Assembly (NCBI GenBank): GCA_017882305.1
Contig: JADGPU010000034.1
Coordinates: forward strand, 1 to 32,136
DNA length: 32,136 bases
Reading direction: 5' to 3'
Source: Bacteroidales bacterium
GTDB lineage: Bacteria > Bacteroidota > Bacteroidia > Bacteroidales > VadinHA17
Shown here: piece after piece, positions 1,177 through 30,164 of the stretch
Layout of the letters: each line of letters opens with the position of its first letter
How positions within the stretch are numbered: position 1 is the stretch's first letter
The notes under the pieces: model-generated
Told to the model about the DNA's origin: nothing
Database searches by the model: none
Seen by the model: only the letters and a program-made list of their open reading frames with translations
Program-made: the position numbers and the translations under genes

Positions 1177-1210
1177 AACCCGCAATTTGAAATATTTAAT
1201 CAGAACTGAA

Positions 1211-2557
1211 ATGAAGAAGTCGTTTATCTTACCTTTAATATTCTTAGCACTGTTTATATCGTGCAAAAAAGACAATATCACTCCTGAGAATAATGTACCC
1301 CCGACAACTACACCTACTTATAAGGAGAAAGATAGGAATGCCCTATATGGCTTAATGAAGGACTGGTATTTCTGGTACAATGATCTTCCTGCCATTACAC
1401 TGACAGACTATAAAGATCCCTATGAATTGATGGACGCTTTGCGCTATAAACCAAAAGACAGATGGAGTTTTGTTGCTGATTATGACGCATTTGTGGCATC
1501 GATGCAGGGGTCATTTGTTGGTCATGGCATACGCATTGGACTTGATACCCAGGGTAACGCAAGAATCGGAATGATTTATAATAACTCGCCTCTTTATACG
1601 AATGGTGCAGGAGGCCCCGGTGTAAGAAGAGGATGGATAATTAAAAAACTGAACGGGCAGGATCTTGCTCCAATTCTTATTTCCAGAGATGCAACTGCCT
1701 ATAATAACCTGATCGGGGCTTCAACAGCTGGTGTGACGAATACATTTATCTTTCAGACTCCGCGAGGAAATGATACAACTGCTGTATCTACAAAATCAGG
1801 TTTTCAGGTTAATTCAGTAACGCTGTATGATACTCTTACTATTAATACTGTAAAAACCGGTCACCTGGTTTTTGATGAATTTATTGAGCCTTCCTCTGAT
1901 GAACTTGCAACTGCATTTGCCTTTTTTAAGGCACAGAATGTCAAAGACCTTATTCTTGACCTGAGGTACAACACAGGAGGTATACTGAATGTTGCCACAG
2001 AACTGGCCAGCTATATAGCAGGAACACCAACATTTTCAACTCCGTTTATAAAAAGTTCCTATAACGACAAAAAAACCATTAATGACACAACCTATAATTT
2101 TATAAGTATTGCTTCTCCCTTAAATCTGAGCAGGCTGGTAGTAATAACAACAAGGGAAACGGCCTCAGCAAGCGAGGAAGTGATTAACGGACTCAAGCCG
2201 CATCTTGCCCTGACAACTATTGGTGATACAACCAACGGCAAGCCAACGGGCATGAATGTATTTCAAACAACGGATAATAAATACATCTTCGCACCTGTCA
2301 CATTTGAACTTGTAAATTCTCTCGGGGATGGCAACTTCTACGCAGGCTTTGTACCTGCTAAATATGTCACAGATGATATTACGCACGATTTCAGAGATAA
2401 AAATGAATTATGTTTTAAAGAGGCTATTTATTTCCTTACGAACGGATCTGTCTCATCTAAAGGAGGTTACACGTTCAATAAATCAAAACAATTTTCCGAA
2501 AAACCGGAATGGATGAAAAATATGTTTATTCTTAATAAATCCATGATTAACAGATAA
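1211..2557 (+). CDS. S41-family serine peptidase lipoprotein, copy 1
   Basis: A 448-residue lipoprotein of the C-terminal-processing-peptidase (S41) family. I chose the ATG at 1211 over an in-frame upstream start at 1187 because it places a clean lipoprotein signal directly at the N-terminus (MKKSFILPLIFLALFISC, lipid-modified Cys followed by KKDN). The peptidase core shows LILDLRYNTGG and then TTRETASASEEV. By spacing to E. coli Prc (Ser430/Lys455), the nucleophile should be Ser319 and the general base Lys344 in TTNGKPTG; the 25-residue spacing is exact. A degenerate PDZ-like segment (GPGVRRGWIIKKLNGQDLAP) precedes it. Compared with copy 2, it carries a five-residue AGGPG insertion in this segment. 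It is probably anchored in the cell envelope; the substrate is unknown. It is a paralogue of the gene at 2953, about 55-60% identical by eye. Confidence 0.92.
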   Translation: MKKSFILPLIFLALFISCKKDNITPENNVPPTTTPTYKEKDRNALYGLMKDWYFWYNDLPAITLTDYKDPYELMDALRYKPKDRWSFVADYDAFVASMQGSFVGHGIRIGLDTQGNARIGMIYNNSPLYTNGAGGPGVRRGWIIKKLNGQDLAPILISRDATAYNNLIGASTAGVTNTFIFQTPRGNDTTAVSTKSGFQVNSVTLYDTLTINTVKTGHLVFDEFIEPSSDELATAFAFFKAQNVKDLILDLRYNTGGILNVATELASYIAGTPTFSTPFIKSSYNDKKTINDTTYNFISIASPLNLSRLVVITTRETASASEEVINGLKPHLALTTIGDTTNGKPTGMNVFQTTDNKYIFAPVTFELVNSLGDGNFYAGFVPAKYVTDDITHDFRDKNELCFKEAIYFLTNGSVSSKGGYTFNKSKQFSEKPEWMKNMFILNKSMINR

Positions 2558-2566
2558 TACGGCCTT

Positions 2567-2796
2567 TTGAAAGAAAAGTTAAAGGAGCGGATAATTCTTG
2601 GTATCGACCCGGTACAAGTATTACCGGATACGGAGTAATAAAAACTATGGGTACTGTTGCCGAGCTCATAACCATCGGGTCAATTGATCTTTCAAGATAT
2701 AAAGATCATTATATTAAACTAAAATATATTTTTACCGCAAAATTGGTATTATAGATAAGTATCATCCACGTTGTAGTGGCTATTGAGGCTCCATTT
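2567..2796 (+). pseudogene. Truncated, frameshifted ruvC remnant (N-terminal part only)
   Basis: This stretch matches the first 77 codons of the intact ruvC at 4452-5024 and then stops matching. It starts at the same TTG (TTG AAA) 9 bases after the first peptidase gene. Correcting one missing base in GAC-CC-GGT gives GIDPGTSITGYGVIKT, LITIGSIDLS and KDHYIKLKYIF, about 80% identical to the intact protein. A second missing base falls near 2735 and an extra base near 2775, so the remnant is 218 instead of 219 bases from start to the conserved Glu codon. The similarity ends at Ile-Glu-Ala-Pro-Phe (2782-2796), where eamA-derived sequence takes over in the same phase. It cannot encode a nuclease: the C-terminal Asp pair is absent. 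Confidence 0.88.
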
Positions 2797-2901
2797 CTTT
2801 CTCTGGTCATTGTACACTATATTCTTCATGAACCCATTTATTCTACCACACCTTTGGGATTAGTTTTTATCATTTCAGGAATCTTTGTTCAAAACCAGTG
2901 A
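2788..2901 (+). pseudogene. Truncated eamA remnant (C-terminal 3' part only)
   Basis: From GCTCCATTT (2788-2796) to TGA (2899-2901) this reads APFLSLVIVHYILHEP, then TTPLGLVFIISGIFVQNQ. It matches the last ~37 residues of the intact EamA protein (APFFSLFFVHFFLHEP, GLLLIISGILIQNR). Everything upstream in the transporter gene is missing. The distance from its stop to the next peptidase ATG (51 bases) is close to that from the intact eamA stop to the first peptidase ATG (47 bases), so the segment order is preserved. The bases 2558-2952, otherwise without a gene, are accounted for by this remnant and the ruvC remnant joined to it. Confidence 0.88.
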
Positions 2902-2952
2902 TCAAAAATCATGGTTTAATTGTTATATATACAATATTTTATATTCATAAAT

Positions 2953-4248
2953 ATGAAAAAGCTTGTTATTCTTCTTTCTTTCTTAATTCTTGGAGTCATT
3001 TCCTGTAAAAAAGATGTTTCTCCGGTTGTCACCCCTCCAACCTTGGATGAATTGGCAAGGGATTATCTCTTTAATGCAATGAATCTAGATTATTTTTGGT
3101 ATAATCTTATGCCTGTTGTTGTTAAAACTGATTACAAGGATCCTTATGAACTTTTGGATGCAATGGAATATAAGACTCTTGACAGATGGAGTTTTGTGCA
3201 AACCTATGACGAGTACCAGGCTCAGACTCAGGGAACCTTTGTCGGACATGGGATCAGCATGGGTCTTGATCCGTCAAACCAGGTAAGAATTGCCCAGATC
3301 TACACTCTTTCACCACTGTATAGTAAAGGAGTCCGAAGGGGATGGATTGTGAAAAATCTCAATGGCACTGATCTGGCTCCGATATTTATTGCCAGGGATA
3401 AGGCTGCTTATAATCAGCTTATTGGTCCGTCTTCGGCAGATGTGACTAATACCTTTCTTTTTCAGACGCCAGCTGGAAAAGATTCCACAATTACATCCAC
3501 GAAAGCTTCTTTTACATTAAATACAGTAATTCTTGCTGATACTTTGCATCTGAAATCGGGAATAACAGGCCATCTTGTTTTTGACCAGTTTATTCCACCA
3601 TCGAACCTGGAATTGCAGACTGCATTTTCATTTTTTAATCAGAATAACATTAAAGATCTTATTGTGGATTTAAGATATAACGGTGGAGGAGTTCTGAATG
3701 TATTGGCAAATATGGCAAGTTATATTGCAGGTTCCACAAAATTTAATTCTCCCTTTCTCAATGTAACCTTCAATGACAAAAATACGGCGTCTAACTTTAC
3801 ATATAACTTCAATACGGTATCTTACCCTCTGAGTATAACAAAATTAATTGTAATCACCACAAGAGAAACTGCCTCTGCCAGTGAAGATTTTATAAATGGG
3901 TTGAAACCCATTCTTGATGTCAGAACTCTGGGTGATACAACAAACGGGAAGCCCGTTGGAATGGTTGGAATTCCATATCAAACAAGTTACATGTTTTGGC
4001 CAATATCTTTCTCACTTGTTAATTCTTCTGGTCAGGGTGAATTTTATAAAGGCTTTCCTCCTGAAAAATATGTCCCTGATGATTTTACCCATGATTGGAA
4101 TGACAGAAATGAGGCTTGCCTTAAAGAGGCTATTTATTATTTAGAGCATGGAAATGTTTCATCAAAAGGATTATATGTTAATCAACCTTCAGTTAAGTTT
4201 TCTGAAAAGCCTGATAAAATTAATAATGCATATATAATCAAAAAATAG
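2953..4248 (+). CDS. S41-family serine peptidase lipoprotein, copy 2
   Basis: A 431-residue paralogue of the gene at 1211, with the same architecture. The ATG at 2953 is preferred over an upstream in-frame TTG at 2920 because it gives a normal lipoprotein signal (MKKLVILLSFLILGVISC then KKD). The N-terminal domain holds LDYFWYN and DYKDPYELLDAMEYK; the PDZ-like part is SKGVRRGWIVKNLNGTDLAP; the core has LIVDLRYNGGG and TTRETASASEDF. The expected catalytic Ser308 and Lys333 (TTNGKPVG) keep the 25-residue spacing of S41 peptidases. It differs from copy 1 at roughly four residues in ten, so the pair is old, yet both frames are open and both catalytic dyads are kept. This suggests that both are in use. 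Substrate unknown. Confidence 0.92.
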   Translation: MKKLVILLSFLILGVISCKKDVSPVVTPPTLDELARDYLFNAMNLDYFWYNLMPVVVKTDYKDPYELLDAMEYKTLDRWSFVQTYDEYQAQTQGTFVGHGISMGLDPSNQVRIAQIYTLSPLYSKGVRRGWIVKNLNGTDLAPIFIARDKAAYNQLIGPSSADVTNTFLFQTPAGKDSTITSTKASFTLNTVILADTLHLKSGITGHLVFDQFIPPSNLELQTAFSFFNQNNIKDLIVDLRYNGGGVLNVLANMASYIAGSTKFNSPFLNVTFNDKNTASNFTYNFNTVSYPLSITKLIVITTRETASASEDFINGLKPILDVRTLGDTTNGKPVGMVGIPYQTSYMFWPISFSLVNSSGQGEFYKGFPPEKYVPDDFTHDWNDRNEACLKEAIYYLEHGNVSSKGLYVNQPSVKFSEKPDKINNAYIIKK

Positions 4249-5751: not shown

Positions 5752-6150
5752 TTAAAGAATAACCTTAAGACTTATCTTGTTAGCAATATCTTTAAATTCT
5801 TCAACTGTAAACTTAAGCTTTGGATTTCTAAAGTTAATATCTTCCATTGTATCCATAGGAACCAGATGTATATGGGCATGAGGTACTTCAAGACCCAGAA
5901 TGGCGACCCCGATACGGTTGCAGGGAATCGCACTTTTAATTGCTACAGCAATTTTCTTTGAAAAAATAATCATCCCGGCTAAATAAACATCTTCCAGGTC
6001 AAAAATATAATCTGTCTCCCTTTTAGAAACGACCAATGTGTGTCCCGCTCTTAAAGGGTTGATGTCGAGAAATGCAAAATAATCGTCATTCTCGGCGATC
6101 TTGTAACATGGGATCTCCCCCTTAATGATTTTAGTAAATATAGTGGCCAT
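5752..6150 (-). CDS. HIT-family nucleotide hydrolase (HinT-like)
   Basis: A 132-residue histidine-triad protein. The catalytic triad HAHIH falls at residues 91-95 followed by LVPM, and the N-terminal part has the family's KIIKGEIPCYKIAE and FLDINPLRAGHTLV. HinT-type enzymes hydrolyse AMP-lysine and other purine phosphoramidates in the cytoplasm. The length fits the Hint branch rather than the longer GalT or Fhit branches. It lies between greA (21 bases upstream) and comF (21 bases downstream) on the same strand, so a greA-hit-comF transcript is likely. Confidence 0.95.
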   Translation of the reverse strand: MATIFTKIIKGEIPCYKIAENDDYFAFLDINPLRAGHTLVVSKRETDYIFDLEDVYLAGMIIFSKKIAVAIKSAIPCNRIGVAILGLEVPHAHIHLVPMDTMEDINFRNPKLKFTVEEFKDIANKISLKVIL

Positions 6151-6171
6151 AATGGCTTATAAAATGATTTA

Positions 6172-6645
6172 TTAGATCGAAATGGAAATAATTTCAAATG
6201 GAATAGTTCCTGAAGGTACCTTTATCTGAACTATATCACCAACTTTCTTCCCGATAAGACCCTGGGCAATAGGAGAACTGACAGCAATCTTACCCAGTTT
6301 GAAATTCGCCTCACTTTCAGGAACAATAAGGTATTCCATTACCGAATTATTTGATTTATTCCTGATCTTTACCCTGTTAAGTAATCTTACAGATGAGATA
6401 TCAATTTTTGATTCGTCAAGAATTCTGGAGCGAGTCACGATATCTTCAAGCTTAGATATTCTTAACTCAAGCATCCCCTGTGCTTCTTTGGCAGCCGCAT
6501 ACTCGGCATTTTCAGAAAGGTCGCCTTTATCCCTTGCATCAGCTATCTGCCTGGATATTGAAGGTCTCTCAACATTTCTTAATTGGTCGAGCTCCTCTTT
6601 TAGTTTCTGAAGACCTTCTACAGTCACATATATAACGTCTGACAT
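6172..6645 (-). CDS. greA: Transcription elongation factor GreA
   Basis: A 157-residue GreA. It binds RNA polymerase through its C-terminal FKBP-like domain and inserts its N-terminal coiled coil into the secondary channel to trigger cleavage of backtracked RNA. The coiled-coil tip reads DKGDLSENAEYAAAKE, with the Asp and Glu that correspond to D41/E44 of E. coli GreA. The C-terminal domain shows SPIAQGLIGKKVGDIVQIKVPSG. Full length, and first gene of the probable greA-hit-comF unit. Its leader carries a good promoter and a hairpin followed by seven T residues, annotated separately, which suggests control by attenuation. Confidence 0.97.
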   Translation of the reverse strand: MSDVIYVTVEGLQKLKEELDQLRNVERPSISRQIADARDKGDLSENAEYAAAKEAQGMLELRISKLEDIVTRSRILDESKIDISSVRLLNRVKIRNKSNNSVMEYLIVPESEANFKLGKIAVSSPIAQGLIGKKVGDIVQIKVPSGTIPFEIISISI

Positions 6646-6661
6646 TTTTCTCTAATATATT

Positions 6662-6699
6662 AAAAAAATAAGAAGAATTCCGGGGTCGCCGGAACTCTT
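6662..6699 (-). terminator. Terminator-like hairpin in the greA leader
   Basis: Read on the minus strand, AAGAGTTCCGG, loop CGACC, then CCGGAATTCTT forms an 11-bp stem with one mismatch (6673-6699). It is followed by CTTA and seven T residues (6668-6662). The stem begins at about the expected transcription start of the promoter at 6706-6737 and ends before the greA ATG at 6645. It could attenuate greA, stabilise the mRNA 5' end, or stop read-through from the small gene at 6790-7170. Attenuation is inferred from position only. Confidence 0.6.
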
Positions 6700-6705
6700 C
6701 AACAA

Positions 6706-6737
6706 CAAATATACAAATTTTTTTAACTATTTACAAA
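6706..6737 (-). promoter_or_regulatory. Bacteroidota-type promoter of greA
   Basis: On the minus strand TTTG (6737-6734), a 20-base spacer and TATATTTG (6713-6706) match the -33 TTTG / -7 TAnnTTTG pattern used by the main Bacteroidota sigma factor. Transcription would start near 6699, about 54 bases before the greA start codon. Confidence 0.65.
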
Positions 6738-6789
6738 TAATAATCTTGTGAAATGGTGTTTTACAAGTATTTATCCTCAAAATTATTCA

Positions 6790-7170
6790 TTATTTATATT
6801 TTTTACCTGCTTTCTTCGTATTTGCCTTTATTTTTTTCTTTTTTTCTTTATCCCGTAAAGTGTATTCTTTTTTGTTTTGTTTCATACGTGCCTGTACTTC
6901 AGGTGTTTGGATATCTATTGTTCTTTTTTGGGATCGCCTCACATTTTTATCATACTCTTTTTTAAGTCTCCGGTCATTTCTTTCCTGCTTTCTTTTAGCT
7001 CTGAGGGCAGATCCAGGCTCTTTAACTTTTGGCGCTTGCTTAATTCCTGCCGTTTTACCGAATAATTGTTTCTCGGGATTCTTATGAAATAACTGAGCAT
7101 TACACGTACCGGTTGCCATTGACAAAAGAAAAAGGGAAAGTAAAAGCTTTCTCAATGATGTATTATTCAT
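6790..7170 (-). CDS. Small, highly basic exported protein of unknown function
   Basis: 126 residues. The first ~25 form a Sec signal peptide (MNNTSLRKLLLSLFLLSMATGTCNA, given here as a Lys/Arg start, hydrophobic core LLLSLFLLSMATG, and probable cleavage after Cys-Asn-Ala). The mature part is dominated by Lys and Arg (RAKRKQERNDRRLKKEYDKN, KEKKKKIKANTKKAGKKYK) and contains no Cys and no recognisable domain. I do not recognise a family. The composition would suit binding to a polyanion such as lipopolysaccharide, surface polysaccharide or nucleic acid in the periplasm, but that is conjecture. It is divergently oriented from the Rieske-like lipoprotein gene across 82 bases. Confidence 0.75.
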   Translation of the reverse strand: MNNTSLRKLLLSLFLLSMATGTCNAQLFHKNPEKQLFGKTAGIKQAPKVKEPGSALRAKRKQERNDRRLKKEYDKNVRRSQKRTIDIQTPEVQARMKQNKKEYTLRDKEKKKKIKANTKKAGKKYK

Positions 7171-10239: not shown

Positions 10240-12267
10240 ATGAATACAACCAGTTTCTATAAGTCTGACCCATGGTTGAACCCCTTCACGGATGTCATTG
10301 ATAGACGCATTGCGAAATGTCTGCTAAAGGAAAAGCATCTGGCCGGGAAAGGTACACTTAGTGATTTCGCAATGGGGCATTATTACTATGGGCTTCATCG
10401 TAACAACGATTCATGGGTCTTCAGGGAATGGGCTCCAAATGCAATAAGCATTTTTGTTATCGGAGTTTTTACAGGATGGAAAGAGAAGAAGGAATTCATG
10501 ATGAAGAGGATCAATTCAATGGGTGACTGGGAGGTATTTCTGCCGCCAGAATTACTTAAACATGGTGACCTTTACAAACTTTCTGTTCACTGGGAAGGTG
10601 GAAGCGGAGAAAGAATTCCTTCATATGCTAACCGTGTGGTTCAGGATGATAAAACTAAAATATTCAGTGCCCAGGTATGGCAACCAGAGAAAAACTATAC
10701 ATGGAGCTGTGATTATTTCACTCCCCCATGTCCTGCTCCCGTGATCTATGAAGCCCATATCGGAATGGCTACACCGGAAGAAAAAATTGGAACGTACCGT
10801 GAATTTACAGAAAAGATTTTGCCAATTATAAGTAAATCCGGATACAATACCATACAACTAATGGCTATTCAGGAACATCCTTTTTATGGATCATTTGGGT
10901 ATCATGTATCGAGTTTTTTTGCCGCCTCATCAAGATTCGGAACACCTGAAGATCTTAAAGAACTGGTTGATAAAGCCCATTTAGCAGGGCTGATGGTTAT
11001 AATGGACCTGGTTCATTCACATTCAGTAAAAAACGTTAATGAAGGACTGGGCCTGCTCGACGGATCAATGGGCCAGTATTTCCATTCAAATCAAAGAAGA
11101 AATCACATAGCCTGGGATTCTTTGTGTTTCGACTATGGGAAGGACAATGTAATTCACTTTCTGCTATCCAACTGTCGCTACTGGCTTGAGGAATATAAAT
11201 TTGACGGATTCAGGTTCGATGGAATTACAAGTATGATTTATTATGACCATGGACTCGGAAAGAATTTCACATCATATAATGAATATTTTGACGGAAATCA
11301 GGATGAAGATGCGCTGGTTTATCTCTTTCTGGCGAATAAACTGATCCATAAGTTTAAGCCAGAGGCCATTACTATTGCGGAGGAGATGAGTGGCATGCCT
11401 GGATTAGCAGCTGATACCGGGAAAATGGGGTATGGTTTCGATTTCAGGCTGTCTATGGGAGTGCCTGATTTCTGGATAAAACTTGTAAAAGAGACATTGG
11501 ATGAAAACTGGGATATGGGAAAGTTGTTCTATGAACTGACTCAACATCGTCCCGAAGAGAAAATAGTATCTTACTGCGAATCGCATGATCAGGCACTCGT
11601 CGGCGATAAAACACTTATCTTCAGGATGATAGATGCTGAAATGTATTCAGGCATGAATAAATCCTATCATAGTATCGTCGTCGACCGTGGTATAGCACTA
11701 CATAAAATGATCAGGCTTATCACCTTCACCACTTCAGGAGGAGGATACCTGAACTTTATGGGGAATGAATTTGGTCATCCGGAATGGATAGACTTTCCGC
11801 GTGAAGGAAATAACTGGAGCTTTAAATATGCCAGACGCCAATGGCAGCTTGCAGATAATAAAGATCTAAAATACTATTACCTGAGAAAGTTCGACAGGAA
11901 AATGGTGAAGCTTCACACTGACTTCAAGATACTTGATGATCTTAATGTTAACAGGATATATGAAAATAATTCCGATAAGGTTATTGCTTATATGAGAGGG
12001 GAATTATTATTTGTTTTTAACTTTCATCCGACTACCTCATTTACTGATTACGGAATACCGGTTACCGGGAAATTCAGCGTTGTTCTTGATACCGATGACC
12101 CTTCTTTTGGCGGGTTCAACAGGATAGACAGGAAAACAATCTATCTCTCAATAAGAAAAGCAGAAAGGAACATTATTAATGCTCCTTTATACCTTTACCT
12201 TTATCTGCCTGCAAGAACAGCCCTTGTATTTAAAAAAGAACCGGTTCGACGGGCAACTGATCTTTAA
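10240..12267 (+). CDS. glgB: 1,4-alpha-glucan branching enzyme (GH13, eukaryote-like type)
   Basis: It cuts alpha-1,4 chains of glycogen and re-attaches them by alpha-1,6 bonds. I start at the ATG at 10240 (675 residues), since the in-frame TTG at 10228 adds only MPII. An N-terminal CBM48 domain (WVFREWAPNAISIFVIGVFT) leads into the GH13 barrel with GFRFDGITSM (nucleophile Asp327), TIAEEMSGMPG (acid/base Glu381) and ESHDQALVGDKT (Asp450). The spacing and the phrase MGNEFGHPEWIDFPREGNNW place it with the short, eukaryotic/GH13_8-like enzymes rather than the long E. coli GlgB. Its TAA shares the TTAA at 12264-12267 with the stop of the convergent synthase-phosphorylase gene, so the two transcripts must overlap at their 3' ends. 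Confidence 0.95.
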   Translation: MNTTSFYKSDPWLNPFTDVIDRRIAKCLLKEKHLAGKGTLSDFAMGHYYYGLHRNNDSWVFREWAPNAISIFVIGVFTGWKEKKEFMMKRINSMGDWEVFLPPELLKHGDLYKLSVHWEGGSGERIPSYANRVVQDDKTKIFSAQVWQPEKNYTWSCDYFTPPCPAPVIYEAHIGMATPEEKIGTYREFTEKILPIISKSGYNTIQLMAIQEHPFYGSFGYHVSSFFAASSRFGTPEDLKELVDKAHLAGLMVIMDLVHSHSVKNVNEGLGLLDGSMGQYFHSNQRRNHIAWDSLCFDYGKDNVIHFLLSNCRYWLEEYKFDGFRFDGITSMIYYDHGLGKNFTSYNEYFDGNQDEDALVYLFLANKLIHKFKPEAITIAEEMSGMPGLAADTGKMGYGFDFRLSMGVPDFWIKLVKETLDENWDMGKLFYELTQHRPEEKIVSYCESHDQALVGDKTLIFRMIDAEMYSGMNKSYHSIVVDRGIALHKMIRLITFTTSGGGYLNFMGNEFGHPEWIDFPREGNNWSFKYARRQWQLADNKDLKYYYLRKFDRKMVKLHTDFKILDDLNVNRIYENNSDKVIAYMRGELLFVFNFHPTTSFTDYGIPVTGKFSVVLDTDDPSFGGFNRIDRKTIYLSIRKAERNIINAPLYLYLYLPARTALVFKKEPVRRATDL

Positions 12268-15200
12268 TCAATCCAGCGAAGCAGGTAAAAATCCTGTTTG
12301 TGCGGAAGATCTTTGTGTTTCGGGTAGATGCGTATTCCATAGAAGAAAGACCCTGCTTTTTCAGGTACAAGACTAGCCCTATAAAGGCATTTGCCGCTCT
12401 TACAACTTATTAATTTAAACTCTTCACTGGCAACGAATTCATGTTCACCTCTTTTGCTCATATGAGCGATAATAAATTCGACACCAACGTTGTCTTTCGG
12501 AATTTTCTTTACATCAAGCACAATTTCTGCCCTGTAATCATGACCTGAGCGGTATACGTTCTCCCCTGCCCGTTCAAAACTATAATTTAAGACTTCAATA
12601 TTATCCCACTCATCTTTTATGGTTTTTTTCCATGCAGCAAGTTCTTTTGCCTTCTCAAAGTTATTTTCGATGAGATATTTATTTCGCTTAAATAGTTTAG
12701 AATAATATTTTTCATAATAATCGTCAATCATTCTCTTCATGGTAAATTCAGGAGCAATTTTTACCATCGTGTTTTTAATCAGACTTATCCATTCAGCAGG
12801 TATACCCAGTTCATTAAAGGAATAATAGGCCGGAACTATTTCATACTCAAGCATATTATAAATAGTTTCAGCATCAATATCATCCTGGAGATCCTGATTT
12901 TCGTATGTTCTTTTCTTCGGTAAAGCCCAGCCTGCAAATGCCCGGTATCCTTCAACCCACCATCCATCCAGAACACTGAAGTGAATCGTACCATTCATGA
13001 CTGCTTTTTCACCGCTAGTGCCTGAAGCCTCAAGAGGCCTGGTAGGTGTATTAAGCCATATGTCGACACCCCTGGTAAGGTATTTTGCCAACTCAATATC
13101 ATAATTCTCAAGGAATATCACTTTCCCAGTAAACTCTGGCATCTGTGATATTTCAAAAACTCTTTTTATAAGATCCTTCCCTCCGCCATCATTTGGATGT
13201 GCTTTCCCTGCGTAAATAAACTGGACCGGTTTTCCCGGATTATTAACTAAACGTGCAAGCCTGTCAAGATCCCGAAAGAGAAGTGATGCCCTCTTATATG
13301 TGGCAAAACGCCTGGCAAATCCTATAGTCAGAGCTTTTTCATCGAGATGACTGCTAATACTCAACAAAGTATGAGGACTGACATGCTTCTCAATCATATC
13401 TGACTGAAGTCTTTTCCTTATATTTGAAAAGAGATTCTTTTTAAGACCAGTTTTTACTTCATAAATCTTTTTATCTTCCAGACTATACAGTTTTTCCCAG
13501 AGGTCCCGGTCGGTCTGATCAAAATTTATATTTCCTGTCAATTGCCTGTAAACCTCTCTCCATTCAGGAGCAGTCCATGTAGGATGATGAACCCCGTTAG
13601 TCACATAGCCTATAAAGAGCTCTTCTTTAAGATATCCAGGCCAGAGTTTATTAAACATACCCTGGCTAACCTCACCATGCAGTTTGGAGACACCATTTAC
13701 CTCCTGCGACATTCGTGCAGCAAGATAACTCATGTTGAATTTTTTATCAGCGTCCCCTTTACATTGTCCCAGAGCCATAAGTTCGTCCCATGTAATCGTT
13801 AACCGGCTATGGTAATGAGAAATATACTTACGAAGAAGATCTTCTTCAAATGCATCATGTCCTGCAGGGACAGGGGTATGTGTGGTAAACAGTGTCGAGG
13901 ACCTTACTGCTTCAAGTGCCTGATAAAATGTAAGATGCTGATCATTTATAAAGCCCCTAAGTCTTTCAAGGCTTATAAATGCAGAATGCCCTTCATTACT
14001 GTGATAGATATCAGGTTTTAACTCCATAGCTACAAGAGCTCTTATCCCACCAATACCAAGTATGAGCTCCTGTCTTAACCTGTTCTCATTATCTCCGCCA
14101 TAAAGATAATGAGTGGCGGTTCTGTCTTCCGGTAAATTATCATCAAAATCAGTATCAAGAAGGACAAGCCTTACTTTCCCCACCATCGCTTCCCATACAC
14201 GGATTTTTACAGTTCTTCCCGGCCATACAACGTTTACATACAAATTATTGCCGTTTGAATCTTTAACCGGGTTTATAGGAAGACGCGAAAAGTCTTCAGC
14301 TTCATATATTGAAAGCTGCTCTCCTTTTGGTCCAAGTTTTTGTTTGAAATAGCCGTATCTGTAAAGCAAACCCACACCGATAATATTTAAATTCGAATCA
14401 CTGGCTTCCTTCAGATAGTCCCCCGCAAGGATCCCTAGTCCGCCTGAGTAAATTTTGAGGCAAGGGTGTATGCCAAACTCCATACTAAAGTAAGCTATTG
14501 AAGGTAAGGTGAGATTATCAGGACGACCCGTATGGGCTTTGAATATTTCATTAACATGTTTTAGCTCAGCCACAAAATCATCATCATCTTCAAGTACAAG
14601 AAGTCTTTTATAATCAATCTTCTCAAGAAGCAGTTTAGGATTATGCTGGACCTCATCCCAGAGAGATGGATCCATCCTTTTAAAAAGCAATTCTGCCTCA
14701 GTGTTCCATGACCACCAGAGATTATTTGCCAGATTTTTAAGTGAAGACAGTTTTTCAGGAACGTCGCTCTGAACATAAATATCTTTCCAAACCGGTACCT
14801 GATAAGGTTTACGAATATGTAATCCGGGAGCTTCAACGAACCTTATAAATTCCCTGGGCTCTTCTCTTCTGTCGCTACTTTGGAGAAGTGCCTGCTCATA
14901 AGCCTCAAGATAATACTTAACCAGGTTGTCCCACAGTGCAATTCTTGAAATCGCGTGAGCTTTCTCTCTCGCTGTCTTAATTTCAAAATCATTTAATCTG
15001 ATAAACTTTGCAATAAAGTTCCAGATCTCAGCAATGACTTCAATCTCATTATCATCTGTCCTTTCAATTATTGATATACCATTTCCGGGATCTTTAAAAT
15101 ATGTCCTGACCCATAGCCCGAATCCTGAAAGTGAAGTAGTTACAGTCGGAATAGAAAACATTTCACTTTCAAGTGGTGTATATCCCCATGGCTCGTAGTA

Positions 15201-16487
15201 CGAAGGAAAAACCGAAAGGTCAAATCCGATAAGCAAATCGAAGTAGGACATATTAAAGATGCCATCATTGCCATTCAGATAACATGGTACAAAAATGATT
15301 TTAACCTTTGATTTTTGATCATTATTAAGATTGTTTGCCGCCACCCTCTGCAGAACAGGATCTGTCGAGGGATAATGCAGACTATGTGTGAGGTATCTGT
15401 CACCACCGTTTCCCGGACCATTATTATAAAGGATGTCTTTTATATCCTGACGAGGTCCCTTATGATATGCGGGGATCAGTAAAAAAGTAATACACTCCTT
15501 TTCAATAGCACCTTTCTTTTGCAATTCCCCGAGAGAATCAATTAAAATATCAACACCCTTATTCCTGAATTCATATCTTCCGCTGTTTACCACTAATATG
15601 CAGTTTTCAGAAACTGAATAACCAAGTATTGCTTTAGCTACACTAAGAAGTTTTTCTCTGGCTACCTGTCTTCTTGCTGCAAAAACATCAGCAGCAGGAA
15701 TGAAAGAATCCTCGAATCCATTTGGTGTTACAAAATCAACTTCCTTGCCTAAAAAGTGATGGCATTCTCTTGACGTTATTTGGCTTACAGTAGTAAAAAC
15801 ATCTGCCTCGGTAGCAGAAATTTTTTCGAGTGATTGCTTTGCTACAACATTGAACTCCCTGGCGATTTGTAAAGGATTATATTCTTCCATTTTACCATAA
15901 AGGGGAAGATTATTCCCGGCAATGCATCTGCCAAGTACTGTGGCATGGGTTGTGAATGAAGTGGCAATCCACGGTGCATACTTTTTCAGGTAAAGTATTC
16001 CTGTGCCGGTCATCCATTCATGGAACTGAGCGACAGTATTTTGATGCTGGTGGTAGAAAGTTGAAAAACTTTCAATAAGCTTACCTGCAGCATATCCGAA
16101 GAGCACAGGTTCTACATAATCCCACTGCCCGGTAATACTGTCAAGTTTGTCTGTTTCCCAAAATCCGGCAAATATCTCATTCTGTTGGCCGAAATACGGC
16201 GTAAAGTCTATAAGGAATACTATCGGTTTTCCGGAAATATTCCATCGCCCTGTCTTAACTCTTAATCCTTCAGATGCAGCTCTGGCTTTCCATTCAACAA
16301 ACAGCGATTCATCAGGAATAAACTCAGGGTTTGTAATCTCTTCCCTCCATACGTCTGGTCCGATAAGTATGTACTTGTCTCCAAGTTCATTTACTATTTT
16401 AAGCGCTTTTGTTGAGACTACCGTATGTATTCCCCCCACTTTATTACATACTTCCCAGCTGGTTTCAAAAATAAATTCAACCTTCAT
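12264..16487 (-). CDS. Fusion of GT3 glycogen synthase and GT35 alpha-glucan phosphorylase
   Basis: A 1407-residue single frame with two opposite activities. Residues 1-~535 are a GT3 (animal/yeast-type) glycogen synthase: FIFETSWEVCNKVGGIHTVV at the start, QFHEWMTGTGILYLK, VTPNGF, and the E-x7-E motif EPWGYTPLE (Glu432, Glu440). Residues ~565-690 match the N-terminal DUF3417-type region of short bacterial phosphorylases (NLANNLWWSWN), followed by the GT35 body: FSMEFGIHP, YSGGLGILAGDYLKEASD, HSNEGHSAF, YVTNGVHHPTW, FARRFATYKRA. PLRPLEASGTSGEK-like sequence (TRPLEASGTSGEKAVMNG) supplies the expected pyridoxal-phosphate Lys at about 1161. A beta-rich domain of ~110 residues ends the protein. 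It is the last gene of the debranching-GT4-GH57 operon, 32 bases after GH57. GT3 enzymes usually use UDP-glucose; donor use here is inferred. Confidence 0.93.
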   Translation of the reverse strand: MKVEFIFETSWEVCNKVGGIHTVVSTKALKIVNELGDKYILIGPDVWREEITNPEFIPDESLFVEWKARAASEGLRVKTGRWNISGKPIVFLIDFTPYFGQQNEIFAGFWETDKLDSITGQWDYVEPVLFGYAAGKLIESFSTFYHQHQNTVAQFHEWMTGTGILYLKKYAPWIATSFTTHATVLGRCIAGNNLPLYGKMEEYNPLQIAREFNVVAKQSLEKISATEADVFTTVSQITSRECHHFLGKEVDFVTPNGFEDSFIPAADVFAARRQVAREKLLSVAKAILGYSVSENCILVVNSGRYEFRNKGVDILIDSLGELQKKGAIEKECITFLLIPAYHKGPRQDIKDILYNNGPGNGGDRYLTHSLHYPSTDPVLQRVAANNLNNDQKSKVKIIFVPCYLNGNDGIFNMSYFDLLIGFDLSVFPSYYEPWGYTPLESEMFSIPTVTTSLSGFGLWVRTYFKDPGNGISIIERTDDNEIEVIAEIWNFIAKFIRLNDFEIKTAREKAHAISRIALWDNLVKYYLEAYEQALLQSSDRREEPREFIRFVEAPGLHIRKPYQVPVWKDIYVQSDVPEKLSSLKNLANNLWWSWNTEAELLFKRMDPSLWDEVQHNPKLLLEKIDYKRLLVLEDDDDFVAELKHVNEIFKAHTGRPDNLTLPSIAYFSMEFGIHPCLKIYSGGLGILAGDYLKEASDSNLNIIGVGLLYRYGYFKQKLGPKGEQLSIYEAEDFSRLPINPVKDSNGNNLYVNVVWPGRTVKIRVWEAMVGKVRLVLLDTDFDDNLPEDRTATHYLYGGDNENRLRQELILGIGGIRALVAMELKPDIYHSNEGHSAFISLERLRGFINDQHLTFYQALEAVRSSTLFTTHTPVPAGHDAFEEDLLRKYISHYHSRLTITWDELMALGQCKGDADKKFNMSYLAARMSQEVNGVSKLHGEVSQGMFNKLWPGYLKEELFIGYVTNGVHHPTWTAPEWREVYRQLTGNINFDQTDRDLWEKLYSLEDKKIYEVKTGLKKNLFSNIRKRLQSDMIEKHVSPHTLLSISSHLDEKALTIGFARRFATYKRASLLFRDLDRLARLVNNPGKPVQFIYAGKAHPNDGGGKDLIKRVFEISQMPEFTGKVIFLENYDIELAKYLTRGVDIWLNTPTRPLEASGTSGEKAVMNGTIHFSVLDGWWVEGYRAFAGWALPKKRTYENQDLQDDIDAETIYNMLEYEIVPAYYSFNELGIPAEWISLIKNTMVKIAPEFTMKRMIDDYYEKYYSKLFKRNKYLIENNFEKAKELAAWKKTIKDEWDNIEVLNYSFERAGENVYRSGHDYRAEIVLDVKKIPKDNVGVEFIIAHMSKRGEHEFVASEEFKLISCKSGKCLYRASLVPEKAGSFFYGIRIYPKHKDLPHKQDFYLLRWID

Positions 16488-25884: not shown

Positions 25885-26781
25885 ATGCTTACTGTTTTTA
25901 ATATACAAAGGTATTCAATACATGACGGGAATGGAGTAAGAACAAATATCTTTTTCAAAGGCTGCCCATTGCGTTGTTCATGGTGTAACAATCCTGAAAG
26001 CCTCGATCCGGCTCCTTCAATAATGTTTGATGAAAGAATATGCCACAAGTTTGGCGAATGTCGGAGGATCGGCAACGGTGGGATTATTCTTGAAAATGAT
26101 AAACTGGTAATTAACAGGGATCTCATCTTAGATACAACTGTTTATAACAATATATGCCCCTCCAAAGCTTTGATTGTGTCGGGACAGGAGAAAACTGTTC
26201 TACAGATACTTCAGGAAATTGAAAAAGATATACCATTCTACAACATGAGTGGCGGTGGAGTTACCCTGACTGGTGGTGAACCTTTATCACAGGGAGCTGA
26301 GCTGATTGATCTGATAATTCAGCTTAAGAAAAGAGGGATACATGTTTCAGCTGAAACTTCACTCCATCTTCCCTGGGAAACTATTGAAAATTATGTCAAT
26401 CTGATAGATCTGTTTTTAGTAGATCTGAAACATCTTGATAATGATAAATTTACAGAATATACTGGAGGAAATGCAACCCTGGTCATGGAAAACTTTAAAA
26501 AGCTGGATGAAACCGGCAGAAAGTTCATAGTGCGTGTACCTGTTATTCCCGGATTTAACTTTTCATCAGCCGAACTATTTGCTATAATTGACTTTGCAGC
26601 CGGGTTAAAACATGTTTCCGAAATTAATTTTATCCCGTTTCATGCATTGGCAAAAGAAAAATATCTGATGCTTGGAAAAGATTATACATTTGGGAATCAT
26701 AGGTGTATTGAAAAATCAGAACTGAAACCCTTTACAGAATATGCTGAACGTAAGGGTCTTATTTCAAAAATCTTGAACTGA
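25885..26781 (+). CDS. Glycyl-radical enzyme activating protein (radical SAM)
   Basis: A 298-residue PflA-like activase that uses S-adenosylmethionine and a [4Fe-4S] cluster to place the glycyl radical on its partner enzyme. The start MLTVFNIQRYSIHDGNGVRT leads into CPLRCSWC (Cys27, Cys31, Cys34; C-x3-C-x2-C), then GGGVTLTGGEP (SAM contact) and a DLFLVDLKHLD strand. Between, where non-PFL activases carry two ferredoxin-type clusters on eight Cys, only Cys53, Cys59 and Cys91 remain. The next gene starts 1 base after the stop, so the pair is translated together. It resembles E. coli YbiY as I recall it, which also has fewer of these Cys. Its partner is the adjacent glycyl radical enzyme. Confidence 0.95.
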   Translation: MLTVFNIQRYSIHDGNGVRTNIFFKGCPLRCSWCNNPESLDPAPSIMFDERICHKFGECRRIGNGGIILENDKLVINRDLILDTTVYNNICPSKALIVSGQEKTVLQILQEIEKDIPFYNMSGGGVTLTGGEPLSQGAELIDLIIQLKKRGIHVSAETSLHLPWETIENYVNLIDLFLVDLKHLDNDKFTEYTGGNATLVMENFKKLDETGRKFIVRVPVIPGFNFSSAELFAIIDFAAGLKHVSEINFIPFHALAKEKYLMLGKDYTFGNHRCIEKSELKPFTEYAERKGLISKILN

Positions 26782-26782
26782 C

Positions 26783-29197
26783 ATGATATCTGACATAAAA
26801 ACAACAGAAATCACTGAACGTATTGCCAAACTGAAAAGCAATGTTCTCTCAGCACGCTCAACAATCTGTACGGAACGGGCAGGATTTTATACTGAAATCT
26901 ATCAGGAATTCGAACGCTCTCCTGTCATTCTTAAAAGGGCTTATGCCCTGGAAAAGACACTGAAGAAGATGACGATATTTATCAGTGAAGGGGAACTTAT
27001 TGTTGGTAACCAATCATCAAAACTGCGGGCTGCTCCGATTTTTCCCGAATATGTCACTTCCTGGATAATAAACGAACTTGATGAATTTGAAAAACGCCCC
27101 GGAGATGCATTCTATATTACCGGGGAACAGAAACAGGAACTTAAAGAAATCTGTAGTTGGTGGAAAGGGAAAACACTGATTGAAAGAGGCTATTCACTCA
27201 TGTCTCCGCTAAACAGGGAGATTCACGACTCCGGAATTATCAGGGCAGAAGGTAACCTTACATCAGGTGATGCCCATATAGCAGTAAATTTTGAAAAGAT
27301 ACTTGATATAGGCCTTGGAGGATATCTTCAGAGTATAGAATTGATACAGAATAAACTTACTGATTCGGATGCCCGTTTTTTTGAAAAGCAGGACTTTTAC
27401 AATGCACTTATCATTGGTATTAAAGCATTTCAAACGTTTATCAGAAGGTTTGAAACACTGTCATTTGAATTATCACAATGTGAAACTGATCTGAGAAGAA
27501 AATCAGAACTGGTTAAAATAAGTGAAATCTGCAATAGTATTTCTGAAAATCCCCCTTCAGGATTTTATGAAGCCTTACAACTGACATGGTTTGTACAACT
27601 GATTCTGCAGATCGAAAGTAATGGCCATTCGGTTTCACTTGGCAGGATGGATCAATATCTGTACAGGTTCTATAAAAATGACATTATCCCTGGTAAAATC
27701 AATGAAGATTTTGCACTGGAACTTCTTGAAAATACCTGGCTGAAATTACTTTCTGTAAATAAGATCAGATCATGGTCACATACCCGTTATTCAGCCGGAG
27801 GCCCTCTATATCAGAATGTTACAATAGGAGGCCAGACTATTGATGGCAAGGATGCCGTAAATGAACTTAGCTTTCTGATCCTCGACTCGGTAGGCAGGAT
27901 GAAACTTACCCAGCCTAATTTATCTATACGTTTCCATAAGAATATCAGCGATGAGTTTCTTACGGAATGTGTCAATGTAATAGGAAAAGGATTTGGGATG
28001 CCTGCATTCAACAATGATGAGATTGTGATCCCGTCGCTCATTGACCTTGGCATTAAGAAAGATGATGCCTATAATTATTCAGCAATCGGTTGTATCGAAA
28101 TAGCAGTCCCGGGGAAATGGGGATACAGGTGCACAGGAATGAGTTTTCTCAATTTCATGCGGGTCTTTTTGGCAGCCATGAATAATGGTCTGGATGAAAT
28201 GTCAGGAAAGACTTTTCATATCGGAACAGGCAATTTTGAAGATTTCAACCGCTTCAGTGACCTGATGCTGGCCTGGAAGGATCAGGTCGGATTTTACACC
28301 AGGGCAACTGTTGAGATTGACACGGCTGCCGATTTAGCTCTTGAAGAACTTGTACCTGACATACTCTGTTCGGCCTTTGTGGATGATTGTATCAGCCGCG
28401 GAAAAACAATTAAAGAAGGTGGCTCTGTATATGATTTCATCTCCGGACTCCAGGTAGGAATTGCCAATCTTGGAAATTCATTGGCAGCAATTAAAAAACT
28501 TGTATTTGAAGAGGCGACTATAAGCAAAGAGACCCTAACTGAAAATCTGAAAAATAATTTTGAAGGGAAAGATGGAGAGAAGATTCGTCAGTTGCTTCTT
28601 AATTATGCCCCGAAATATGGGAACGATGATGATTATGTTGACAAGTTGCTATATGAAGCTTACATGTATTATATTGACGAACTGACAAAATATCATACCA
28701 CGCGCTTTGGAAGAGGACCATTTGGATGCAGGTACTATGCCGGCACTTCAAGTATCTCATCCAATGTTCCTTCTGGTTCAGTTGTCCCTGCCACCCCTGA
28801 CGGCCGAAAAGCATTTACTCCGCTTGCCGAGGGGAGTTCACCTACTTCCGGAACCGATACCCTTGGTCCCACTGCAGTTTTTAAGTCTGTATCAAAGCTC
28901 CCCACAAATAAAATCCTCGGCGGAGTACTTTTGAATCAGAAACTTGCTCCATCGGCTCTTACCAACGAGACTCAAAAACAGAAACTGATTTCAATAATCA
29001 GAACATTTTTTGAAACTCTTAAGGGCTGGCATGTACAATATAATATTGTTTCGAGAGACACTCTGCTGGCGGCAAAAAAGAATCCTGAAAACTACAGGGA
29101 TCTGGTGGTTCGTGTAGCGGGATATTCCGCATTTTTTACAACATTGTCTCCTGATACTCAGGATGATATTATAGCCCGTACAGAACAGTCGTTATAA
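26783..29197 (+). CDS. Glycyl radical enzyme of the YbiW/PflD type (candidate anhydrohexitol-6-phosphate lyase)
   Basis: An 804-residue glycyl radical enzyme. The radical Gly780 is in RVAGYSAFF near the C-terminus and the catalytic Cys437 is in AIGCIEIAVPGKWGYRCTG with Glu439, the C-x-E signature of C-O-cleaving members; pyruvate formate-lyase has Cys-Cys instead. His165 in SGDAHIAVNF lies at the substrate-site position. The loop after GCIE lacks the GWHD stretch of glycerol/propanediol and choline-type enzymes; GKWGYRCTGMSF is instead shared, from my memory of its sequence, with E. coli YbiW, as are CTERA, RAAPIFPEY, YGNDDD and DDIIARTE. YbiW and PflD are reported to open 1,5-anhydroglucitol and 1,5-anhydromannitol 6-phosphates to 1-deoxyfructose 6-phosphate. 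That function is inferred here. Part of a tight operon with its activase and a ROK kinase. Confidence 0.93.
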   Translation: MISDIKTTEITERIAKLKSNVLSARSTICTERAGFYTEIYQEFERSPVILKRAYALEKTLKKMTIFISEGELIVGNQSSKLRAAPIFPEYVTSWIINELDEFEKRPGDAFYITGEQKQELKEICSWWKGKTLIERGYSLMSPLNREIHDSGIIRAEGNLTSGDAHIAVNFEKILDIGLGGYLQSIELIQNKLTDSDARFFEKQDFYNALIIGIKAFQTFIRRFETLSFELSQCETDLRRKSELVKISEICNSISENPPSGFYEALQLTWFVQLILQIESNGHSVSLGRMDQYLYRFYKNDIIPGKINEDFALELLENTWLKLLSVNKIRSWSHTRYSAGGPLYQNVTIGGQTIDGKDAVNELSFLILDSVGRMKLTQPNLSIRFHKNISDEFLTECVNVIGKGFGMPAFNNDEIVIPSLIDLGIKKDDAYNYSAIGCIEIAVPGKWGYRCTGMSFLNFMRVFLAAMNNGLDEMSGKTFHIGTGNFEDFNRFSDLMLAWKDQVGFYTRATVEIDTAADLALEELVPDILCSAFVDDCISRGKTIKEGGSVYDFISGLQVGIANLGNSLAAIKKLVFEEATISKETLTENLKNNFEGKDGEKIRQLLLNYAPKYGNDDDYVDKLLYEAYMYYIDELTKYHTTRFGRGPFGCRYYAGTSSISSNVPSGSVVPATPDGRKAFTPLAEGSSPTSGTDTLGPTAVFKSVSKLPTNKILGGVLLNQKLAPSALTNETQKQKLISIIRTFFETLKGWHVQYNIVSRDTLLAAKKNPENYRDLVVRVAGYSAFFTTLSPDTQDDIIARTEQSL

Positions 29198-29204
29198 TGA
29201 TCAA

Positions 29205-30164
29205 ATGGAAAAACTTCTTTGTGGAGTGGACCTTGGTGGCACCAAACTTTCAGTCGGATTAATTAGTGTCGATGGAAGAATTCATGATAAGCTTACTGTT
29301 TATGATCATGTAGGTAAGAATGAAATCATGATTGTAGATCAGATCATCAGACTTATAAAGCAGCTTATTTCCCAAAATGAACTCAGCGAGTCTGATCTGA
29401 GAGGAATTGGGATTGGGTTCCCGGGGCATGTCCGTTATAAAGATGGCCATACGCTAACCACTTCGAATCTTAAAGGTTTCAAGAATTTCCCTTTACGTCA
29501 GGCCGTGGCAGAACACTTTATGATTCCAGTATTGCTCGATAATGATGCCAACGCTCAGGCTTTTTGTGAGTACAAGTTCGGTGCCGGAAAGGGTTACGAT
29601 ACCGTGATTTTTCTGACTATCAGCACCGGGATCGGTGCCGGAATAATTTTAAATAATAAGCTTTACCGGGGCATTACAGGAACAGCCGGCGAATTTGGGC
29701 ACACAATAGTAAATTCAGACAATAATCAAATTTGTACATGTGGTAATGAAGGGTGCCTGATGGCATGTGCCTGTGGTCTCGCATTGCCATATCTTTTTAA
29801 AAAGAAGACCGAACAGGGAATAATAACAACACTTCCATTACCGGACGATTTTAATTATTCACATGTTGATGGGAAGATGATTATGAAAGGTCTCGAAATT
29901 GATGATCCCCTTTCAAAAGCAATAATTCAGGAGTGTGCCGATTATATCGGTATCGCAGTTTATAACATCTTTCAGATTCTCAATCCCCCATTAATTATCC
30001 TGGGAGGAGGCCTGACATGCTGGGGGGAAACTTATCTGACCCGTATCAGAAAAAAATTTCATGAACTGGCAAGAGATATGATTTTTGATAAAATTGAGAT
30101 AGTTGAAGCAGTAGCAGGTGGAGATGCAGGTTTGATTGGTGCAGCTGCACTGCTGTTGGAATAG
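29205..30164 (+). CDS. ROK-family sugar kinase
   Basis: A 319-residue ROK protein without a DNA-binding domain, hence a kinase rather than a repressor. It has the phosphate loop GVDLGGTKLSVGLI, LDNDANAQAFCEYKFG (catalytic Asp in NDAN), the GTAGEFGHTIV segment with zinc ligand His166, and CTCGNEGC (Cys177, Cys179, Cys184). After the zinc motif, where glucokinases usually have Glu, it reads LMACACG. It starts 7 bases after the glycyl radical enzyme, so it is the third gene of the operon and probably makes a 6-phosphate substrate for that enzyme. Glucose, mannose, fructose and N-acetylmannosamine are known ROK substrates; an anhydrohexitol is inferred from context. Its TAG ends at the first base of a palindrome. 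Confidence 0.93.
   Translation: MEKLLCGVDLGGTKLSVGLISVDGRIHDKLTVYDHVGKNEIMIVDQIIRLIKQLISQNELSESDLRGIGIGFPGHVRYKDGHTLTTSNLKGFKNFPLRQAVAEHFMIPVLLDNDANAQAFCEYKFGAGKGYDTVIFLTISTGIGAGIILNNKLYRGITGTAGEFGHTIVNSDNNQICTCGNEGCLMACACGLALPYLFKKKTEQGIITTLPLPDDFNYSHVDGKMIMKGLEIDDPLSKAIIQECADYIGIAVYNIFQILNPPLIILGGGLTCWGETYLTRIRKKFHELARDMIFDKIEIVEAVAGGDAGLIGAAALLLE

Follow-up and report, generated by a model that had tools for sequence, protein, structure and literature searches.

A YbiW-type glycyl radical enzyme coupled to a ROK kinase in Bacteroidales: a candidate kinase-fed variant of anhydroglycolysis

In E. coli anhydroglycolysis, a pathway of gut bacteria described only in recent years, 1-deoxyfructose-6-phosphate is split by FsaA or FsaB, and GldA acts downstream as hydroxyacetone reductase. 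The preceding ring opening belongs to glycyl radical enzymes (GREs): YbiW opens 1,5-anhydroglucitol-6-phosphate (AG-6-phosphate) and PflD the corresponding 1,5-anhydromannitol-6-phosphate, both after uptake by a phosphotransferase system (PTS; Ma et al., as told in PMC12441222). In a 32,136 nt contig from a Bacteroidales bacterium, the whole of which is here called the window, a YbiW-clade GRE with its own activase is coupled to a ROK kinase, in contrast to the PTS uptake of E. coli. How is the 6-phosphate made in such an organism, and what becomes of the product of ring opening? We consider it likely, with a probability of roughly 0.7, that the operon serves to bring 1,5-anhydroglucitol (AG) into sugar phosphate metabolism under anaerobic conditions and independently of a PTS. 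This would make it a kinase-fed form of anhydroglycolysis, with substrate and activity inferred from sequence comparison.

The operon and its glycyl radical enzyme

The three genes follow each other closely, with 1 base between activase and GRE and 7 bases between GRE and ROK kinase. The features used below are:

25885..26781, + strand: radical SAM activase of the GRE, YbiY-like, 298 aa (TIGR02494, 311 bits; 42% identity to YbiY, 32% to PflC)
26783..29197, + strand: YbiW-type GRE, 804 aa, proposed 1,5-anhydroglucitol-6-phosphate lyase (structure-chain scores, identity, tree)
28091..28099, + strand: codons of Cys437-Ile-Glu439, proposed thiyl radical site and base (sequence; common to YbiW)
29120..29122, + strand: codon of Gly780, proposed glycyl radical site (sequence; Pfam Gly_radical, 114 bits)
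29205..30164, + strand: ROK kinase, 319 aa, proposed 1,5-anhydroglucitol 6-kinase (PF00480, 224 bits; ROK_glcA, 219.1 bits, below the cut-off of 260.35)
29760..29762, + strand: codon of Met186, which replaces the Glu/Asp binding the sugar 1-OH in other ROK kinases (alignment; role of the position from PMC10031466)

Profiles identify a divergent DUF6272 gene upstream of the operon and a convergent GIY-YIG gene downstream; the second downstream gene is presumably ComM-like. There is no transporter among the three genes and, according to the window ORF list and the locus comparison, no PTS gene beside them. The statement that the window holds no recognisable aldolase, GldA-like dehydrogenase or glucan lyase was confirmed by reading the ORF list, with family profiles on some of the ORFs.

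The GRE has the PFL-like and Gly_radical Pfam domains and carries GCIE (with Cys437 and Glu439), GKWGYRCTGMSF at 444-455 and the radical loop RVAGYS (with Gly780), of which GCIE and RVAGYS are common to it and YbiW in the alignment. By homology we take Cys437 to be the thiyl radical site and Glu439 the base. Among solved structures the highest score was that of 6xs4 (1001 bits), followed by YbiW (8yjn/8id7, 992 bits) and, at lower values, by glycerol dehydratase (636), diol dehydratase (568), the unnamed glycyl radical protein 9rco (550) and PflD (504 bits). Identity is 56–57% to E. coli YbiW and 37% to PflD. The enzyme had been described as YbiW/PflD-like; the first half of that name stands and the second has to be dropped.

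For a GRE tree, 97 sequences were extracted, 23 near-duplicates dropped and E. coli YbiW and PflD added, giving 76 rows; a quick method was used, which issued long-branch warnings for some rows outside the Bacteroidales-type, YbiW and L046 groups. The label Bacteroidales-type refers to the nearest named loci among the matches listed, Odoribacter sp. (L044) and Bacteroidales UBA5072 (L045). The 20 rows of this type form one clade, which joins the gammaproteobacterial YbiW clade and the Spirochaetales GRE L046, apart from a clade of Bacillota, Actinomycetota and Spirochaetota. By scores and by this quick-method tree the window GRE belongs to the YbiW group and is separate from both PflD and the dehydratases. 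We therefore propose that it is a YbiW-type 1,5-anhydroglucitol-6-phosphate lyase, a ring-opening activity suggested by homology.

Could the GRE be a diol or glycerol dehydratase-type enzyme with an unrelated kinase beside it? It does fall under TIGR01774, a broad subfamily which includes glycerol dehydratase. However, the alignment of 26783-29197 that had been proposed as a check gave a YbiW relative and no closer match to the dehydratase subfamilies (992 versus 636 and 568 bits). The window enzyme reads KWGYRCTGMSF at the place of GWHD in glycerol dehydratase (1r8w) and of a GWHD/GWHDA-type sequence (dgWHDAAFFN) in diol dehydratase (5i2a), so that the reported absence of the GWHD loop holds against both structures; GCIE and GKWGYRCTGMSF are present as reported. 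With a sugar kinase adjacent and a DeoR-type regulator in sister loci, we find this reading scarcely credible.

A second GRE group, 38–41% identical to the window GRE, was seen in 13 genomes of the family (for instance G030:C223:85601-87952 and G039:C23:99814-102162).

A methionine in the 1-OH site of the kinase

The window kinase keeps D9, T13, N113, D114, E163, H166 and the zinc motif CTCGNEGC, and thus has the features of the ROK superfamily. It shares DxGxT, the Asn-Asp pair with catalytic Asp114, ExGH and the zinc cysteines with ROK glucokinases and N-acetylhexosamine kinases (SgGlkA 3vgk, 2qm1, PsNagK 7p7i), which have Glu or Asp at the 1-OH site, whereas the window kinase has Met186. 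According to PMC5458393, CxCGxxGCx(E/D) forms the end of the ROK motif. In Plesiomonas NagK (PsNagK), D187 engages the sugar 1'-OH and the exchange D187N raises the Km (PMC10031466); D187 is the residue after GCI and aligns with Glu186 of E. coli NagK and with Met186.

At the acid position of the motif the alignment has Met in 34 of 34 GRE-linked ROK proteins, a set from a single clade that contains near-duplicates and one gene twice (L042, L170). The 28 ROK proteins used for comparison all have Glu there; 26 of them were drawn from a sample of the phylum whose selection favoured high scores, and the remaining two belong to the window's genome. The 28 were parsed from 31 PF00480 loci, three being left out, and E. 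coli NagK was also aligned; the usual zinc cysteines are absent from four of the 28. All 34 GRE-linked proteins conserve D9, T13, N113, D114, E163 and H166. Besides the three background loci, L077, L087, L158 and L159 were left out of the Met/Glu count. L158, a ROK-like protein of the window's genome, scores 72 bits and has no ExGH, and the ROK-like L159 scores 20 bits.

In a ROK tree of 63 rows, 32 full-length Met kinases form one clade (support 100/99) with two deep branches, one Bacteroidales-type and the other comprising Spirochaetota and Lachnospiraceae; the controls are mostly from Bacteroidota and long branches meet, which leaves the sister group of the Met kinases unsure. Since the Met kinases form one clade, the methionine represents one event kept over time and not 34 events.

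What could such an exchange mean? As the aligned residue binds the 1-OH, and 1,5-anhydrohexitols lack one, Met186 would fit a ring without 1-OH. Furthermore, for low-Km hexokinases AG is a 10,000–30,000 times poorer substrate than glucose (PMC12441222), and a special AG kinase is therefore to be expected. Linkage and Met186 together point to the ROK protein as a dedicated 1,5-anhydroglucitol 6-kinase. The original prediction that the 6-phosphate is made by an ATP-dependent ROK kinase thus gains support from the strict linkage to the GRE (see below) and from the replaced 1-OH-binding residue, both read from sequence. In literature searches, mostly outside subscription journals, no paper on a bacterial AG kinase was found among those listed, which speaks weakly for novelty. 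A regulatory role of the ROK protein was considered and rejected, as Pfam shows no DNA-binding domain.

Three other substrates have to be weighed. Kinase and GRE might act on another 1,5-anhydrohexitol, for example 1,5-anhydromannitol, instead of AG: Met186 suits any ring without 1-OH, and the mannitol form is the reported substrate of PflD, which is distantly related (PMC12441222). The GRE is, however, much nearer to YbiW, which takes the AG form, than to PflD (56% versus 37%, 992 versus 504 bits), and we hold this to be unlikely, if worth bearing in mind. An ordinary glucokinase or hexose kinase that came to lie behind the GRE by chance would agree with ROK_glcA being the best profile for the window kinase and with glucokinases being its best-matching solved structures. 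Against this, the score stays under the cut-off and Met replaces the acid in the 1-OH site, so that the protein falls outside the ROK glucokinases as the profile delimits them, and the kinase is linked to the GRE across genomes; such a coincidence seems improbable to us. Finally, the kinase might act on O1-blocked sugars (glycosides) and the GRE on a product of that route. In favour of this stands 4htl, a 'beta-glucoside kinase' in the PDB list, which has Asn at the matching place (PMC5458393, naming 4htl NanK). Unlike 4htl, with Tyr155 for His according to the same paper, the window kinase keeps the zinc site and ExGH; the operon contains no glycosidase and the GRE is a close YbiW relative, which makes this very improbable. 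We keep AG as the proposed substrate in what follows.

Linkage of kinase and GRE across genomes

A GRE at least 64% identical to that of the window occurs in 26 of the 117 genomes of the family. Activase, GRE and ROK kinase follow in this order in 20 of 20 neighbourhoods read among those 26, and in 22 of 22 Bacteroidales-type loci when L044 and L045 are counted, so the arrangement goes beyond chance. Together with the ORFs and family profiles, this recurrence bears out the tight three-gene unit that had been predicted. In a sample of 393 genomes of the order (thresholds E<=1e-200 for the GRE and E<=1e-60 for the kinase), seven genomes have the GRE and eight the kinase, and all seven are among the eight; G000, G006 and G013 are common to the GRE/kinase genomes of this sample and the family set. 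The GRE and kinase matches end 7 to 19 bases apart in six of the seven. G013 has its GRE spread over two frames, with the kinase beginning some 650 bases further on, and in G435, the eighth kinase genome, the end of a GRE is found beside the kinase at the contig end. The split YbiW-type GRE of G013 (C64:1404-3807) represents a frameshift or an assembly error. The gene behind the kinase belongs to cluster c8 in ten sister loci; the L045 member of this cluster is a DeoR-type regulator according to Pfam.

A scan of the genome collection yielded at least 80 GRE loci. Among the matches listed, 75 of 80 have a GRE more than 50% identical to that of the window or to YbiW, and nine of these 75 YbiW-clade loci have a ROK-like stretch within 8 kb: L044 and L045, three from Spirochaetota (L072, L073, L094), two from Lachnospiraceae (L067, L113) and two with a degenerate protein (L077, L087). 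Thus the same Met-type kinase stands beside YbiW-clade GREs in three Spirochaetota and two Lachnospiraceae loci among these matches. The degenerate ROK-like proteins (L077:13128-13988, Oscillospiraceae; L087:8889-9848, Selenomonadaceae), also beside YbiW-clade GREs, have EVSY for ExGH and no zinc motif.

PTS- and FsaA-linked YbiW-clade loci of Bacillota, Actinomycetota and Gammaproteobacteria resemble the window operon in the GRE, the activase and often a DeoR-type regulator (BLAST). Among the matches listed, 50 of the 66 YbiW-clade loci that have no ROK protein carry an FsaA-like gene within 8 kb, versus none of the seven with the Met-type ROK, although contig ends truncate L072, L094 and L067 in part. 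One of the two degenerate-ROK loci, L077, also has an FsaA-like gene at this distance. PTS references were matched in eight of the 75 loci among the matches listed, none of them with a ROK protein, a count that is too low because few references were used; the PTS matches of L116 belong to a neighbouring PflD-type cluster. The GRE of Spirochaetales L046, 63% identical, has neither kinase nor activase in the stretch examined, which counts against the kinase–GRE scheme. Mapping 'ROK-linked' onto the GRE tree takes three changes or more; the kinase was therefore gained by transfer, or lost, more than once, with Met kept.

Genes reading as an ABC sugar transporter lie near the kinase in L073 and L067 (reading and BLAST between loci). 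Between the Met-type ROK and the ABC transporter genes of L067, from Lachnospiraceae, a 7-bladed propeller lactonase gene is located (5893-7050; PF10282, 308 bits). A GntP-family permease gene (L040:2-1345, 491 bits) near the operon in L040, L041 and L042 may represent another possible transporter.

The lower pathway and the proposed route

In E. coli, fsaA adjoins ybiY. In the window's genome, which is 92% complete, no FsaA-type aldolase was found: the best TIGR00875 score is 40 bits versus a cut-off of 246, and E. coli FsaA as query gave 21 bits at best. The aldolase of the E. coli-type pathway, FsaA or FsaB, was hence not found here at HMM level, and the FsaA step of the original prediction is not supported. 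The absence of such a gene had itself been named as evidence against the prediction; it questions the lower pathway and not the ring opening.

FSA and transaldolase differ at a Phe/Tyr position. The only PF00923 match in the window's genome is a transaldolase-like protein of 414 aa (115 bits), which was rejected as the missing aldolase because similar proteins are encoded by many genomes of the family, whether or not these have the GRE. PF00923 is matched in 18 of the 26 GRE genomes of the family and not in the other eight (G004, G005, G006, G007, G008, G013, G034, G073), three of which are nearly or fully complete (G006 100%, G013 99%, G007 98%); G035 alone among the 26 has a match of FSA length (225 aa). 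None of 24 chosen GRE genomes (23 kinase-linked and that of L046) passes the FSA cut-off and 14 have some match, among them G508 (227 bits), G035 (220) and G512 (112), the first two of which come near the cut-off and are probably FSA-like. FsaA-type genes thus occur in a few kinase-linked genomes and were not found in most; the lower pathway may differ from that of E. coli.

The DeoC/LacD family PF01791 is present in 113 of 117 family genomes. Its short form was rejected as a general substitute: GRE-bearing G006, G007, G008, G015 and G016 have one PF01791 match each, and two genomes with no YbiW-type GRE, G061 and G081, have the short form as well. The search for GldA in the window's genome returned one Fe-ADH fragment at a contig edge.

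We propose the following route. AG would enter by a transporter, and the ROK protein, judged by its anatomy and the comparison, would move the phosphate of ATP to the 6-OH, giving AG-6-phosphate. By homology, the activase would use SAM to place a radical on Gly780, from which Cys437 would become a thiyl radical, and the GRE would open the ring in the way reported for YbiW of E. coli, yielding 1-deoxyfructose-6-phosphate. As the search of the window's genome gave no FsaA-type gene, we assume that this product meets an aldolase of another kind or has a different fate. More tentatively, and at slightly less than even odds, a Glu-to-Met ROK subfamily of ATP-dependent AG 6-kinases may have travelled with YbiW-type GREs in Bacteroidota, Spirochaetota and Lachnospiraceae, most of these genomes handling 1-deoxyfructose-6-phosphate by a non-FsaA enzyme; this would amount to a second, undescribed lower half of anhydroglycolysis.

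AG is a widespread polyol of the diet and of human blood, and AG-6-phosphate is toxic and underlies the neutropenia of GSDIb and G6PC3 deficiency (PMC12441222). If a bacterial AG-preferring kinase exists, anhydroglycolysis would reach beyond PTS-fed bacteria, and the enzyme could serve as a reagent for AG assays, with a one-residue signature by which to find it. The missing FsaA is a missing-enzyme question open to direct test.

A glycogen locus near the operon had been read as a possible sign of a substrate derived from starch or glycogen. Genes for a debranching enzyme, a glycosyltransferase and a GH57 protein accompany the operon in no other group of loci than the synteny group of the window; cluster c7, the debranching enzyme, is upstream in nine loci of this group and in none of ten sister loci (L035-L042, L044, L045; up to eight ORFs on each side). 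The proximity reflects local synteny, and we discarded it as evidence of function.

Some neighbouring observations may be added. A second DeoC paralogue of the window's genome, of about 237 aa, lies beside a hexokinase gene: at L222:7743-9908 (G000:C93), a hexokinase-family gene (PF03727/PF00349) is divergent to this short DeoC-family aldolase gene, and the two could form a separate sugar route. The pair recurs in L223, L224 and L229, and in L230, L231 and L240 its members again adjoin each other but are oriented differently. Two similar tandem genes at 1187-4248 of the window (456 and 442 aa), which fall into one cluster in the locus comparison, encode what we take to be S41-type secreted peptidases. 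On the minus strand of the window, 12264-16487 encodes a protein of 1407 aa with glycogen synthase (PF05693, 321 bits), DUF3417 (PF11897) and carbohydrate phosphorylase (PF00343) domains, which may combine glycogen synthesis and phosphorolysis in one chain.
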